Of a DNA stretch of 31,412 nt, positions 22,738 to 31,412 are shown piece by piece. Source of the DNA: a virus. The stretch spans positions 1 through 31,412 of IMG/VR virus record IMGVR_UViG_3300028025_005151, one strand, 5' to 3'. The position numbers and the translations under genes are program-made. The first letter of the stretch is position 1. Each line of letters starts with the position of its first letter. The notes beneath the pieces were generated by a model that searched no databases, was not told the DNA's origin, and saw nothing but the letters and a program-made list of their open reading frames with translations.

Positions 22738-22761
22738 TGAATGTACGACTATTGCTCTGCC
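22738..22761 (-). promoter_or_regulatory. GGCA-N12-TACATTCA promoter
   Basis: GGCAGAG..., 12 nt, TACATTCA, then TGTCAAATAATTAAGT before the ATG at 22721. GGCAGAGCAATAG encodes the A-E-Q-stop end of the SpeD-like gene. Confidence 0.72.
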
Positions 22762-23150
22762 ACCCACTTACCGCTATCAATCAACTTAAATTCCATATCA
22801 TTTCTATCTATGAATTGATACGTTGCTGATTGTAGATTAAAATGCTCGTTAATGTGATTTAATACTTGCTCAGGTGTGAAATCAGAGCAACTGTATAAGT
22901 CAAATTGGAACATTGAAGGATGAATTGCATCCCAAACATGTATTGAAGCGTGAGATGTAGCTAGTGTTACTGTACCTGTTATTCCCTCGTTTCCAAGTTC
23001 ATTAACATATACTGAGGTAGGTCCTGCTACAACTACCATTCCGACTTTATTTACTAATTCTCTAAACCATTGGTTTAGTACTTCTTCTGATTTGGGTGGG
23101 TTAGTAATATAACCCTTTACTAATAGGTGGAGGTGATTTGGTACGAACAT
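22749..23150 (-). CDS. speD: SpeD-like pyruvoyl-dependent (S-adenosylmethionine) decarboxylase proenzyme (133 aa)
   Basis: The core 'GITGTVTLATSHASIHVW' and 'FQFDLYSCSDFTPEQVLNHI' aligns with bacterial SpeD. Ser66 is the expected self-cleaving residue that becomes pyruvoyl, His71 matches the processing His, and Cys88 the catalytic Cys of the 'D.fsC' motif. The Glu that normally precedes the Ser is Thr here. The N-terminus 'NHLHLLVKGY' and length (133, against about 120-135) also fit. SpeD supplies decarboxylated SAM for spermidine synthesis; relatives have shifted substrate to ornithine or arginine. A phage copy could support polyamine-based DNA packaging. It is coupled by TAATG to the nuclease gene. 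Confidence 0.8.
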   Translation of the reverse strand: MFVPNHLHLLVKGYITNPPKSEEVLNQWFRELVNKVGMVVVAGPTSVYVNELGNEGITGTVTLATSHASIHVWDAIHPSMFQFDLYSCSDFTPEQVLNHINEHFNLQSATYQFIDRNDMEFKLIDSGKWVAEQ

Positions 23151-24663: not shown

Positions 24664-24867
24664 TTAATGAAAATTAAAGAATTTAGTTGGTTTAATTTGT
24701 TTATACTCTGTTTTTGATCTTAATACCTGCTCTGCTATTGCTCTTGGCTTTGCTTTACGGCCTCTAGCCTTGCAGATACGCTCCTCGGTGACGCCCCAAT
24801 TTGTTTCCTTGACCTGTTTGTAAAAGTTCTGCTTAATTTTTTCCCAGTATTCTTTATCTTGTTCCAT
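24664..24867 (-). CDS. Basic protein nested in the end of the KWC gene (67 aa)
   Basis: Lys/Glu/Arg-rich, with 'KARGRKAKPRAIAEQVLRSK' containing an AT-hook-like RGRK core. The first 133 nt are shared, in another frame, with the C-terminus of the 572-residue gene. A GGCA-class promoter with -10 box 5 nt from the ATG lies further inside that gene, so the small gene can be expressed on its own. Overlapping coding this long is unusual here and supports a real, constrained arrangement, but the evidence is promoter and frame only. Confidence 0.6.
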   Translation of the reverse strand: MEQDKEYWEKIKQNFYKQVKETNWGVTEERICKARGRKAKPRAIAEQVLRSKTEYKQIKPTKFFNFH

Positions 24868-26453
24868 AGACTTAAATGTACGACTTCTGGTTGTGCCTCC
24901 TCTGATCTTAATCGCTTAATGTGATCATCCATCTCCTGTATTCGTTGTTGATTAGTTTTAATACCAGCTAACATTTGCATTTTAATTTTCATATCATTAT
25001 CCAATGTTCCTAATTCAATATTATCTAGTAATGATAAATGCTTTTCAGCTACACGTTCATTAGCTTCAGCCATACGAGATGCCATCATTTGTTCTAATCT
25101 CCATCTAGCATCTTCTGCTGGTTCTTCTCTATCAAATCTAACTTCATTAAGTTCATTGTATAGTTGTTGTCTATCATCATTAAATAATCTTCTTTCTATT
25201 TGTTCATTTATTGATTCTTGTCTACTCCCACCATTCATTTCTCTAGTTAGTTCCTGTATTAGTCTTGTAGTATCCTCATCTGTTCTTTCAAAATGATTAT
25301 ATTCTTGAGGTTGCTCAGGTAATCTTAGTCCCTCAGATGTGTATCTTGCTCTTTCAACTCCATCTGTTCTGAATACTAAATCACCATTATTAATTGCTAC
25401 ATCACCTGTAACTGATATTTGTGCTGTTGGGTTTGAAGTACCTAATCCTATTCCTACATTGGTTGTAGTTGAATTAACTGTAAATGTACTTGGATTATAA
25501 GTGTAAATAGTACCAGTACCTGTTGATGGCCAATTTGTCATTGTTGTACCACTACTTTCAATATGATCTACTATACCACCTGATCTATAAGCTCTATCTA
25601 AACTAGGTCCCTCTTCATAATTTCCTGGTCTGTAGTTACCATCCTTATACATTTGTAGTTTAGCCTGTTCTTCTTCTGACATAAGGATTTCATTAGGAAT
25701 ACCTCCCCTGTCTTTAATTTCGTTTCTAATTGCCTCTAATACTGCTGCTGGTGCTTCTGAATCTAATGCCTCAATTCTTCTATCAGTAACATCCCACCAT
25801 GAAAACTCATTATCATAGGCTTGATCTAAGTTTTTAAAGCAAGCTACTTTATAACCCGTTTTCTTATTAATATTATAAATCAATATACCACGAGATGAAT
25901 AGCGAGCATAGTATTGACCTGATTCTGTTGTAGTACACCACTTAGTATTAGCACCATATTTCATTGATGCCTCTAGTGATAGTGGTCTTAATGATATCCA
26001 AGTATCATCTTCATACACCTTTTTAATTTGCTTTTCTAGTGCCTTATCTATTAATTTTACTTCAGCTAATGAAACTGCTTGTTCGATTTCATCCCATGAT
26101 GAATAAGATGTAACATCAGTATTTTCAATTAATTTACGATCAATGAATGAAGCGAATTTAGTGAATGACATTATCTTATACTCACTCATTAAATTATTTA
26201 AACTATTAAACACAAATATTAACATTTCTAAATCAAACGTTTCAAGGTAATTATAATCTAACCCCCAACGTACCATACGGGCTATTATTTCAGAACGATG
26301 TTCATCTCTATACTTAGGTGACTCATTTTTATCTAATTTAATAAGCATTTCAACGTACTTATTAGTTTGATTTGGTGATATCATTTTATAGATATCAATA
26401 GCGCTTAAAGCGTAGATTGGGTGTTGTTTCTTTAATTCGTCTATTCTTGACAT
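24735..26453 (-). CDS. KWC-motif phage protein with tail-fibre-like insert (572 aa)
   Basis: Three parts are visible. Residues ~1-250 are cytoplasmic-looking and end in 'SMKYGANTKWCTTTESGQYY' (KWC at 171-173) and 'YNINKKTGYKVACF', a motif pair typical of phage proteins of unknown function. Residues ~300-380 are Thr/Ser/Gly-rich and contain 'TNVGIGLGTSNPTAQISVTG' and 'DVAINNGDLVFRTDGVE', the 'vGIGt..P.a.l.V.G...i' signature of Bacteroidota and phage fibre proteins. Residues ~395-572 are a charged coiled coil ending in a basic tail. The combination is odd. The stop lies within the 67-residue gene. Confidence 0.75.
   Translation of the reverse strand: MSRIDELKKQHPIYALSAIDIYKMISPNQTNKYVEMLIKLDKNESPKYRDEHRSEIIARMVRWGLDYNYLETFDLEMLIFVFNSLNNLMSEYKIMSFTKFASFIDRKLIENTDVTSYSSWDEIEQAVSLAEVKLIDKALEKQIKKVYEDDTWISLRPLSLEASMKYGANTKWCTTTESGQYYARYSSRGILIYNINKKTGYKVACFKNLDQAYDNEFSWWDVTDRRIEALDSEAPAAVLEAIRNEIKDRGGIPNEILMSEEEQAKLQMYKDGNYRPGNYEEGPSLDRAYRSGGIVDHIESSGTTMTNWPSTGTGTIYTYNPSTFTVNSTTTNVGIGLGTSNPTAQISVTGDVAINNGDLVFRTDGVERARYTSEGLRLPEQPQEYNHFERTDEDTTRLIQELTREMNGGSRQESINEQIERRLFNDDRQQLYNELNEVRFDREEPAEDARWRLEQMMASRMAEANERVAEKHLSLLDNIELGTLDNDMKIKMQMLAGIKTNQQRIQEMDDHIKRLRSEEAQPEVVHLSLWNKIKNTGKKLSRTFTNRSRKQIGASPRSVSARLEAVKQSQEQ
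24873..24897 (-). promoter_or_regulatory. GGCA-class promoter (N13), near-leaderless
   Basis: GGCACAA..., 13 nt, TACATTTA, then AGTCT and the ATG at 24867, inside the C-terminal coding DNA of the 572-residue gene. Confidence 0.58.
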
Positions 26454-26718: not shown

Positions 26719-27675
26719 CTATTGAATGTTCTTAAACATAGTTGGTACTTGACCATATACAGGTAATTTACCATCCCACTTATTGATAAACTGTTGTTGA
26801 ATCAACATTGGTGTTAATGTAGACTGTCTTAATTTATTCGCCATAGCTTCACCCGCAGCTGAGATTACCGCTTTAGCACTATCACCCTTAGCACGTGCAA
26901 TTTTCTCTTGTGCTTCAGCATTTGCTACTAAAGTACGTTGTACTGCTGCTTGTGCTTCTTGAACCGCTTTAGTCTTTTCTTCAATTGAAGCTGTAATAGC
27001 TGGAGGTGGAGCGATATTGGTTCTCAATTGAGATACTGTAAACCACTTACCTACACGCTTATTTGCTTCAGTAATAATAGCAGTTTCAAATTCAGCTCTA
27101 TGGTTGAAAATACTATCCACAGTGAATAAGTTAGCTACATCATTTACAGAGCTAATAATAGCATTCTTTAACCAACCCTGTTCTACAGTTTTAATATCGA
27201 CACGTAAGTTTTGGAACATGTTATCTACTGTAGTTGGATTTAAAGCGTAGTTAAAGCTAGGTTTGATTGTAGCTTGGAAACCACCCTTAGTAATTACAAC
27301 GTTTTCTTCATAATCAATGTGTTGTTGGAACACTGGAAATTCATAGTAGCGTTGAGTGAAGTTGTTATAGATTACCCAACCACGTTTATACTCTACTTTA
27401 GACATACCTTTATTATCACCAATATTGTCTACTAAGATTGCTACGTGACCTGAATCTACTCTCTCTACATCATATGGGTTTAAGAATGAGATAATAATAG
27501 ATGCAATTATAATACCTACTAACTTAACATACCCAATAGCATTGCTTTGTGTTTCAGTATACTTTTCACCTCTATACTCTTTCTCTACTTTCTTTACATA
27601 AGTATCAAGTGAGAATAATTTGAATGTTACGCTTAATATAATCAAGGTAACGATAAATGTTAAAATTCCAATCAT
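26719..27675 (-). CDS. SPFH/band-7 (prohibitin-like) membrane protein (318 aa)
   Basis: Two N-terminal hydrophobic helices (residues ~3-22 and ~48-66 'YVKLVGIIIASIIISFLNPY') precede an SPFH domain: 'VERVDSGHVAILVDNIGD', 'RGWVIYNNFTQRYYEFPVFQ' and 'TKGGFQATIKPSFNYALN'. A long Ala/Glu/Gln coiled coil (~230-290, 'EEKTKAVQEAQAAVQRTLVA', 'AEAQEKIARAKGDSAKAVIS') completes the prohibitin/HflK-like layout. Such proteins form membrane cages or microdomains and regulate proteases such as FtsH. A phage copy may steer membrane proteolysis. Its GTCA-class promoter is inside the phosphatase gene end. Confidence 0.92.
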   Translation of the reverse strand: MIGILTFIVTLIILSVTFKLFSLDTYVKKVEKEYRGEKYTETQSNAIGYVKLVGIIIASIIISFLNPYDVERVDSGHVAILVDNIGDNKGMSKVEYKRGWVIYNNFTQRYYEFPVFQQHIDYEENVVITKGGFQATIKPSFNYALNPTTVDNMFQNLRVDIKTVEQGWLKNAIISSVNDVANLFTVDSIFNHRAEFETAIITEANKRVGKWFTVSQLRTNIAPPPAITASIEEKTKAVQEAQAAVQRTLVANAEAQEKIARAKGDSAKAVISAAGEAMANKLRQSTLTPMLIQQQFINKWDGKLPVYGQVPTMFKNIQ

Positions 27676-29403: not shown

Positions 29404-29577
29404 TTACTTTACAGTTTTAACTTCTACTGTTGGAGTTGCTGTACCTGCTACAGTTGAGTCAGTTACTACTACTGTTGAGTCTACTGCTACTGCAGTTGAA
29501 TCCGTTGTTGCTGTAGTAGAAGCACCACCACAAGCTGTCAATGTAGCCACTGCTACGATTGCGATTACTTTTTTCAT
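29404..29577 (-). CDS. Small Thr/Val-rich lipoprotein (57 aa)
   Basis: MKKVIAIVAVATLTACGG is a type II signal peptide with lipobox LTAC (lipidated Cys16). The mature part is a repetitive, low-complexity Thr/Ser/Val/Asp stretch ('DSTAVAVDSTVVVTDSTV') ending in VKTVK. It resembles small envelope lipoproteins of Bacteroidota rather than typical phage proteins, so host origin is plausible. Its own promoter and an 8-bp UUCG hairpin make it an isolated cassette, suggesting high-level expression. Tandem TAATAA stops. It may act in superinfection exclusion or lysis. Confidence 0.85.
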   Translation of the reverse strand: MKKVIAIVAVATLTACGGASTTATTDSTAVAVDSTVVVTDSTVAGTATPTVEVKTVK

Positions 29578-29635: not shown

Positions 29636-31021
29636 TTAGAACATTGTTCTTGCTCCAATCATAAAGAAGTTCAATATTGGTGAATTGGGTACCGTTGATG
29701 CGTTTATCTTCCAATCAATAGCAAACGCGAATCGCTTTGACAATTGATAAGAATAACCAACACCAACCAACCCAGCTATATTATAGTTCCAGGAGCCTCC
29801 GGTTTCCGTATTGTATGAATACGGGGAACCCATAATGAAGACCCCTGGGGATACCGTTGATTTCTTATTCAACGGATAAGGTTTGGTCCAGAAGCCTGTA
29901 GTCGACGATGCGAACTGATATGAATAGCTATCTGCACCTTTAAGTTTAATATTAATAATTGATAAGTTATAGCCTAATACACCATACTTAGGATGTGGTC
30001 TAACATAAGTGTAACCACCAAATGTCATTGGAATACCATTCATCCAAGCGAATGTATATGAATATGCTTTAATTGCTTTTAAACCACCTTTCTTATCAAA
30101 CACCATGTTACTAGTGTTACCTGATAATGCAAATGATTTTAAATCAGCATAGATCATACTCGATAAACCCCAACTCGCGTCGCCTGCAGCTGAAGATGAA
30201 GACATACCTAATGAAATAATAGGTGTAAATCCGCCTGTTGGGTTTTGAGCTGTAGTTAGATCTGAATTAACTAAGATTGGGTTTAATCGTAGTTGTTTCT
30301 TTTCATCTTTCTTCTTATCCTCTTTTTTTTCTTCCTTTTTATCTTCTTTTTTTTCCTCTTTAGATTCAGATTTAGATTCTTCTTTCGATTCCGATTTGCT
30401 TTCTGACTTGCTCTCTGAACTGCTCTCGCTTTTTGTTTCGCTGCTTGATCCTGAACTCTCCGTGCTTGAGCTTGATGAAGAGGATTCCCCAGAAGACGAT
30501 GAAGATTGGGAAGATGAGGAAGAGGACGATGAAGTTGATTGGGTAGATGAAGAAGCGGTTCCACTCGAAGCGGTTGATGCGCTCGATGAAGCAGCGCTTG
30601 AAGCACTTGATGATGCTGATGACGATGCTGAGGAAGCTGCTGTACTTGCAGCTGAAGACGCTGCGGATGAAGCTGCGCTTGCTGCTGACGATGCTGCTGC
30701 TGATGCTGCTGTTGAGGCGGCTTGTGATACAGTTGCAGTTATTGTTTGTTGTACCGCTGTGTTTGTAGGACATGGCGTTGCGAATATTTCACTGATCCAT
30801 TTAGTTACTGTACCTGAAGCAAAATCAGCATATGTAAATGTTCTAGATTTGTTTCTGATAAGTACAACTACACCAGGTTGGTTTGATGCTATAGGAACTA
30901 ATACTGTGTATGTTTTGGAATCACAGGGATCAATGTAGGTTTGAGTAATAAATTGACCATTCGCTTTATTAGCGAAGGCAAACGAAACTAATATTAATAG
31001 ACTTAATATCCATTTTTTCAT
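29636..31021 (-). CDS. Exported outer-membrane-barrel-like protein with Ser/Ala/Glu/Lys spacer (461 aa)
   Basis: Signal peptide 1-22 (cleavage before Gln23). Residues ~23-95 form a small domain with Cys33 and Cys84 that could pair. Residues ~100-242 are extreme low complexity: Ala/Ser to ~160, Ser to ~195, then Ser/Glu/Lys and Glu/Lys. Residues ~243-461 alternate polar and aromatic strands ('NYNIAGLVGVGYSYQLSKRF', 'AFAIDWKINAS') and end in Phe ('ARTMF'), typical of outer-membrane beta-barrels. A phage gene for such a protein is unusual; a surface-blocking (superinfection exclusion) or receptor-modulating role is plausible. It is coupled to the lipoprotein gene by TAATG. Confidence 0.75.
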   Translation of the reverse strand: MKKWILSLLILVSFAFANKANGQFITQTYIDPCDSKTYTVLVPIASNQPGVVVLIRNKSRTFTYADFASGTVTKWISEIFATPCPTNTAVQQTITATVSQAASTAASAAASSAASAASSAASSAASTAASSASSSASSSASSAASSSASTASSGTASSSTQSTSSSSSSSSQSSSSSGESSSSSSSTESSGSSSETKSESSSESKSESKSESKEESKSESKEEKKEDKKEEKKEDKKKDEKKQLRLNPILVNSDLTTAQNPTGGFTPIISLGMSSSSAAGDASWGLSSMIYADLKSFALSGNTSNMVFDKKGGLKAIKAYSYTFAWMNGIPMTFGGYTYVRPHPKYGVLGYNLSIINIKLKGADSYSYQFASSTTGFWTKPYPLNKKSTVSPGVFIMGSPYSYNTETGGSWNYNIAGLVGVGYSYQLSKRFAFAIDWKINASTVPNSPILNFFMIGARTMF

Positions 31022-31284
31022 TATCTTTTTCTAGATGGACGAGGAGGTAATTGTCTTTGTGGAACGAAACGATGAGTTGGCCTTTGAGGTATCCAACGTT
31101 GTGGTTGGTATCTAGGTACACCCCATCTTTGAATTATAATTGGATTATAAAATAAAGGTGTATACTGGTAATCGTATATTATTCTTTGTTTTTTAACTAC
31201 TGAATCTTTAGGATCTACATACACGTATTGTAATGGAGTACATCCTGCTAGAGCAAGAAACAGTATTAATAATAAGAATCTCAT
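31021..31284 (-). CDS. Arg/Pro-rich lipoprotein (87 aa)
   Basis: MRFLLLILFLALAGCTP is a type II signal peptide with lipobox LAGC (Cys15). The mature protein has an aromatic/basic core ('YDYQYTPLFYNPIIIQRWGV') and a Pro/Gln/Arg repeat tail ('PQRWIPQRPTHRFVPQRQ') ending RKR. The stop overlaps the ATG of the barrel-like protein (TAATG), so the two are probably made together and may work as a pair at the outer membrane. A spanin-type outer-membrane role is an alternative. Confidence 0.85.
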   Translation of the reverse strand: MRFLLLILFLALAGCTPLQYVYVDPKDSVVKKQRIIYDYQYTPLFYNPIIIQRWGVPRYQPQRWIPQRPTHRFVPQRQLPPRPSRKR

Positions 31285-31285
31285 G

Positions 31286-31393
31286 TTATTTTAATTTACT
31301 TAATATAACTTGATTAGCCTTAACTAATTCAAATTTTTTAACTCCAGAGCGTCTGCTACGCATTGAACGTGGCTTTGATTTTTTATTTGCCAT
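31286..31393 (-). CDS. Basic microprotein (35 aa)
   Basis: MANKKSKPRSMRSRRSGVKK opens a strongly Lys/Arg-rich peptide with a short hydrophobic, helical end ('FELVKANQVILSKLK'). The stop lies 2 nt before the lipoprotein ATG. It may be nucleic-acid-binding; with so few residues, coding is only likely. Confidence 0.55.
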   Translation of the reverse strand: MANKKSKPRSMRSRRSGVKKFELVKANQVILSKLK

Positions 31394-31412
31394 TACTTAT
31401 CGAATATTTTTT

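Follow-up and report, generated by a model that had tools for sequence, protein, structure and literature searches.

The window, meaning the whole 31.4-kb stretch of DNA analysed here, is a virus fragment from a contractile-tailed phage with baseplate wedge genes, whose best match is phage immuto of Flavobacterium sp. LMO8 (46.5% identity). Close to one end lies gene B (29636-31021, minus strand), whose reading frame, junction, orthologues and AF2 model point to an exported outer-membrane barrel protein of 461 amino acids. The start of B overlaps the stop of an 87-amino-acid, Arg/Pro-rich lipoprotein gene (31021-31284, minus strand; lipobox LAGC) in the sequence TAATG, a junction that the earlier sequence-only reading had described correctly, judging from the open reading frames. 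Upstream of the lipoprotein are a basic 35-amino-acid ORF (MANKKSKPRSMRSRRSGVKKFELVKANQVILSKLK; 31286-31393, minus strand) and, cut by the window end, the final codons and stop of gene G (31393-31412, minus strand), predicted to encode an exported CsgG-fold protein. The ATG of the basic ORF overlaps the stop of G. This stretch of G is identical in a near-identical contig (L003), where a complete G is followed by the basic ORF, the lipoprotein and B.

Protein B consists of five parts behind a signal peptide, all encoded on the minus strand. The signal peptide (residues 1-22, MKKWILSLLILVSFAFANKANG; 30956-31021) is probably cleaved before Gln23, which is invariant in the alignment; the export signal of the orthologues, called by eye, is a pattern of N-terminal Lys, hydrophobic and small residues, followed by Gln at +1 in nearly every one. 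The N-domain (residues 23-85; 30767-30955) contains the invariant Cys 33 and Cys 84, is swappable and occurs in at least five types. The spacer comprises an Ala/Ser-rich segment (residues 86-140; 30602-30766; helix 88-129 predicted at low confidence), a Ser-rich segment predicted to be disordered (residues 141-195; 30437-30601) and a Glu/Lys-rich segment with 17 positive and 17 negative charges (residues 196-243; 30293-30436). The predicted 12-strand barrel domain (residues 244-461; 29639-30292) ends in Phe.

Orthologues of B were found in dozens of viral contigs and share this plan: a signal peptide, a two-Cys N-domain of ~63 amino acids, Ala/Ser, Ser and usually Glu/Lys segments, and a C-domain of ~218 amino acids. 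The spacer varies in length from 73 to 243 amino acids among 45 diverse representatives, yet nearly all keep the order of an Ala/Ser third, a Ser third and a mostly Glu/Lys third, and all 45 end in Phe or Leu. The signal peptide, graded spacer and terminal Phe reported by the sequence-only reading are confirmed, and the gradation is real rather than a chance run. A distant branch, immuto gp18, has the same plan and keeps G as its neighbour, with a spacer rich in Gly, Ser, Thr and Asn, so spacer chemistry is conserved only inside the main branch. One B gene (L006, 9241-10200) is split by a frameshift in the purine-rich stretch that codes for Glu/Lys, either an assembly error or a real inactivation.

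The same reading had suggested that the charges of the spacer (acidic/basic) and of the Arg-rich lipoprotein tail could let B and the adjoining lipoprotein interact. This charge pairing is rejected, as the Glu/Lys segment is net neutral (17 Lys vs 17 Asp/Glu) and the lipoprotein family, an accessory rather than a constant component, occurs in the neighbourhood of just 9 of the 58 non-redundant loci, in some cases upstream of G and not adjacent to B. The pairing in the window is incidental. The evidence points instead to partners past the window edge: the CsgG-fold protein and a secreted cohesin protein matched to the N-domain.

Several other window genes were recorded. A GH19-type endolysin (1539-2135; PHROG 181, E 9e-71) is encoded amid baseplate genes, and the gene at 22752-23150 resembles S-adenosylmethionine decarboxylase (PHROG 3125). 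A 572-amino-acid protein (24735-26453; PHROG 17056, E 4e-7) carries a tail-fibre-like stretch (GIGLGTSNPTAQISVTGDVAINNGDLVFRTDGVERAR) in an otherwise unrelated sequence. An SPFH/Band 7 membrane protein (26719-27675; PF01145, E 4e-18) has a similar counterpart in the L003 neighbourhood. Just downstream of B (29404-29577) is a 57-amino-acid lipoprotein with repeated DSTxAVDST-like units, and a related ORF occurs near B in 49 of 131 loci.

A predicted outer-membrane barrel and its constant neighbours

An AF2 run on 24 sequences modelled the C-domain of B as 12 strands of 10-17 residues at positions 249-459 with middling confidence (pLDDT about 65-80), the N-domain as small and mixed, and the spacer as disordered (pLDDT about 30 for helix and spacer). 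Foldseek ranked FapF first and EspP third. VIA-align gave Z scores of 15.8 for CymA (212 residues, 3.4 A), 15.6 for OmpG, 13.9 for EspP and 12.4 for NalP; these matches to closed barrels (Z 12-15.8) concern the overall fold. Loops following odd strands are more variable than turns following even strands (entropy 1.45 vs 0.89, p=0.014), as would follow from periplasmic termini. The alternation of hydrophobicity along the strands of the window protein is marginal (1.65 vs a shuffled mean of 1.22, reached by 306 of 5000 shuffles), and an invariant SKR motif lies between strands 10 and 11. The models thus support the suggestion, made from sequence, that the C-domain is an outer-membrane barrel.

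Sequence searches did not place B in a family. There is none for it in Pfam, PHROGs or NCBIfam, and PHROGs gave no lysis-family match; matches to ClfA and similar proteins are low-complexity composition artefacts. Autotransporter Pfam models match neither B nor 19 aligned barrel domains. Searching PDB sequences with the barrel-domain profile returned nothing up to E 5, although FapF is in the PDB, and the N-domain likewise returned nothing. No cellular homologues of the barrel were found. A tblastn search of annotated phages with the whole protein detected no homologues, and the isolate relative was reached solely via the neighbouring G. Barrel-domain paralogues of 250-297 amino acids that lack the N-domain are encoded in L065 (6776-7537), L002 (8477-9283), L016 (611-1417) and L081 (5524-6414); those of L002 and L016 lie upstream in the same operon and have a poly-proline linker (PPPPPPPGP).

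The neighbourhood of B comprises G (exported, about 240 amino acids), M (a single transmembrane segment), a further transmembrane protein, holin-like proteins, lipoproteins and large secreted proteins, those with cohesin domains lying further upstream than G. M is encoded in all 58 non-redundant G loci and B in at least 57. A scan of ATG-started frames placed B downstream of G in 54 of the 58; three of the four flagged loci encode B with a non-ATG start, which explains its apparent loss, and in the fourth (L216) a barrel end is still recognisable in the part of the frame that was read. In one branch, B is directly followed by a 205-amino-acid protein with an N-terminal membrane anchor and a EVEVEVPYEVEVEK repeat (L031, 11325-11939), a candidate spanin-like protein. 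In another locus (L240, 10667-11083), a small outer-membrane-like protein of 139 amino acids follows G in the place of B.

The monomer model of G (AF2 pLDDT 75.6, pTM 0.70) contains three long strands (133-152, 155-172 and 178-194) and no clear transmembrane hairpins like those of CsgG. Its best eight VIA matches are all CsgG (Z 10.8-11.6, 157-173 residues, 3.6-4.3 A), followed by Cj1090c and PelC. G therefore has, by prediction, the fold of the curli secretion channel CsgG. The CsgG model PF03783 matches none of 11 G members or four phage genomes, a PDB sequence search did not recognise G as CsgG, and direct profile comparison gave a weak collinear match (P=0.02) that is insufficient alone, so the assignment is one of fold and not of family membership. 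A small exported protein that heads the cassette (L031, 5351-5842, and its relatives, p164) cross-matches the G profile in several loci, raising the possibility of two CsgG-like proteins per operon. A search for cellular homologues of G gave only two contigs, both phage-like, that had been binned into MAGs of Flavobacterium or Bacteroidetes. G itself is present in more than 500 viral contigs, which indicates that the module is widespread in aquatic phages and essentially unannotated; its isolate members are labelled hypothetical.

N-domain exchange and the secreted cassette

The N-domain of B has been exchanged repeatedly and independently of the barrel. In L016 and L021, the barrels are 87% identical and the N-domains 34%, and nucleotide identity drops over the N-domain and recovers in the spacer and barrel. 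The same dip is seen between L119 and L123, where the sequence on the G side is conserved. When N-domains are scored as DPC or not DPC, at least eight changes fall on the barrel tree.

Cohesin domains occur in the secreted proteins encoded nearby, some of which have a C-type lectin or PA14 domain. The cohesin signal is weak in the alpha and beta lineages, where several members fall just under the Pfam cut-off. Type-A sorting domains of the host type IX secretion system (T9SS) exceed the curated cut-off in immuto, L146, L193, L204 and L241 and are weaker in L110. The proteins with this C-terminal domain are immuto gp15 (L056, 12691-13419) and those at L204 2696-4594, L193 2689-4605, L146 1626-3512 and L241 7316-9241, and this phage cargo is apparently addressed to the host cell surface. 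Most of the T9SS-tailed phage proteins have a cohesin domain and some have a weak dockerin match.

N-domain type matches the type of this secreted cassette. Alpha N-domains are paired with a cohesin protein ending in GYNNF in 9 of 9 non-redundant loci (0 of 31 others), beta and gamma N-domains with proteins ending in DAVNK or similar, usually as a tandem pair, and delta N-domains with T9SS-tailed proteins. Because beta and gamma N-domains have the same type of partner, the correspondence is not exactly one to one. Given the barrel, the partial correlation between the N-domain and the nearest secreted protein is 0.81 (31 loci), and 0.42-0.46 in a stricter set of 40 loci. In that set, the N-domain correlates at 0.49 with the cassette lipoprotein, at 0.04 with G and at -0.10 with TM200; G and TM200, positioned between B and the secreted gene, track the barrel instead. 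Each of the six independent alpha switches of the N-domain on the barrel tree coincides with a switch of the secreted-protein type (sign test p=0.031, the floor for just six switches), and on the G and M trees, too, alpha has separate origins, through six changes. At the level of sequence, this pattern is what a recognition module co-inherited with its cargo would produce. The small lipoprotein that is swapped along with the N-domain, with its partial correlation of 0.49, is an alternative candidate for the binding partner in place of the cohesin protein.

That the type of the tip matches a secreted protein encoded a few genes away suggests a phage-built device for export or surface display. 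We propose, with a probability of roughly one half, a phage envelope module for the export or display of phage proteins, with B as its outer-membrane component, the N-domain recognising the cognate cassette and G forming the ring.

Instead, B might serve in superinfection exclusion or receptor masking, its displayed N-domain blocking or mimicking a receptor and changing under pressure from competing phages. Receptor blocking was one role suggested by the sequence-only reading; it and the envelope reinforcement also suggested there are conceivable. Phage-encoded porins and Lom-like barrels are known, the predicted outer-membrane location of B is suitable, and the repeated N-domain exchange resembles diversifying selection. 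We consider this role unlikely, since competition alone predicts no match to a specific secreted cassette, such as is seen in all six switches, and since B is always accompanied by G and M.

The match could also reflect linked recombination or population history without physical interaction. All of the genes fit into about 5 kb of a frequently recombining region, and the independent switches number only six. The intervening genes (TM200, G and holin-like genes) do not track the N-domain, however, and alpha appears at least four to six times on the trees of these genes, which makes linkage a rather improbable source of the pattern.

The lysis device that the sequence-only reading had offered among its roles for B is at best faintly indicated. 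Under this explanation, B and G would together permeabilise membranes in a spanin-like or pore role. GH19 endolysins (19 of 58 loci) and holin-like genes (about 28 of 58) are found within 6 kb of the module, and a lysis role has been proposed for the CsgG of phage Melnitz (PMC9004378). The endolysin of the window phage is nevertheless 27 kb away among the baseplate genes, and lysis leaves the secreted cohesin, lectin and T9SS proteins and the N-domain matching unexplained; we regard it as quite doubtful. That B is a virion protein, such as a fibre-like or decoration protein, is very improbable: its modular build, in which a long spacer carries an exchanged tip, recalls that of a fibre, and virion proteomics for relatives including immuto were not found in the literature, but a signal peptide occurs in all branches, the fold matches are to outer-membrane barrels, and the operon encodes exported proteins and lipoproteins.

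Related export systems and a possible role in infected cells

One of the closest parallels to B is FapF, the secretion channel for functional amyloid in Pseudomonas (PMC5557850), which likewise has a C-terminal 12-strand barrel, an N-terminal helical segment (of low confidence in B) and a long disordered linker. The periplasmic coiled coil of FapF was suggested by its authors to recruit substrate (PMC5557850). We found no sequence similarity between the two proteins. B differs from FapF in the folded two-Cys N-domain that precedes its helix, in a graded spacer of much greater length and in the lack of a plug in the monomer model, and its locus adjoins genes for cohesin proteins rather than amyloid.

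The csgFG operons of a pelagimyophage (PMC7029224) and Melnitz (PMC9004378) also belong to myoviruses and encode a CsgG-fold protein beside further exported proteins. Phage parts for outer-membrane export are therefore already known. The CsgG proteins of these phages are 37-40% identical to that of E. coli, whereas sequence methods do not detect G as CsgG. The annotation of these two genomes shows no B-like barrel next to csgFG, and no CsgF was recognised in the loci of B. The isolated Flavobacterium phage immuto has diverged orthologues of G and B at syntenic positions, gp17 and gp18 (MW353175.1, QQO91696.1/QQO91697.1), which are annotated only as hypothetical, and the spacer composition of gp18 differs from that of B.

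Type Va autotransporters such as EspP and NalP share with B the signal peptide, the N-terminal position of the passenger, the C-terminal 12-strand barrel and the fold match. B differs from them in having no Pfam match, no predicted pore helix, and a low-complexity stalk in place of a beta-helix passenger. The PelB/PelC exopolysaccharide exporter combines, as B and G may, a barrel with a periplasmic ring of CsgG-like fold, and PelC appears below CsgG in the fold matches of G. The barrel component there, PelB, is larger and includes TPRs, and no polysaccharide genes were recognised in the neighbourhood of B. The searched libraries yielded no tethered barrel whose exchangeable tip is matched to its cargo.

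In the proposed export or display module, the barrel of B would sit in the host outer membrane, and the long disordered Ala/Ser-Ser-Glu/Lys spacer would tether the small, probably disulphide-stabilised N-domain. The N-domain would recognise the cognate cohesin-domain protein of the same operon, or the lipoprotein encoded with it, and the CsgG-fold G would form a periplasmic or outer-membrane ring, so that the infected Bacteroidota cell would export or display phage proteins via the module. The N-domain might lie on either side of the membrane, capturing cargo in the periplasm as proposed for FapF or being displayed on the surface as in autotransporters. The FapF precedent, with its periplasmic N-terminus (PMC5557850), favours periplasmic capture, and the T9SS tails on the cargo of some lineages favour surface display. 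The phage could benefit by clumping neighbouring hosts, the 'sibling capture' proposed for the curli genes of pelagimyophages (PMC7029224), by receptor masking or by adhesin release.

If the match between N-domain and cassette reflects binding, these loci offer a ready set of cognate and non-cognate pairs with which the role of phage curli-type pores becomes directly testable, and the phage would build an envelope-spanning apparatus for export or adhesion in its host. More tentatively, phages of Bacteroidota may carry their own modular display or secretion machine, a CsgG-fold ring and a tethered barrel with an interchangeable N-domain as the specificity element for a cohesin/lectin cassette, leaving infected cells decorated with, or releasing, adhesins of the phage's choosing.
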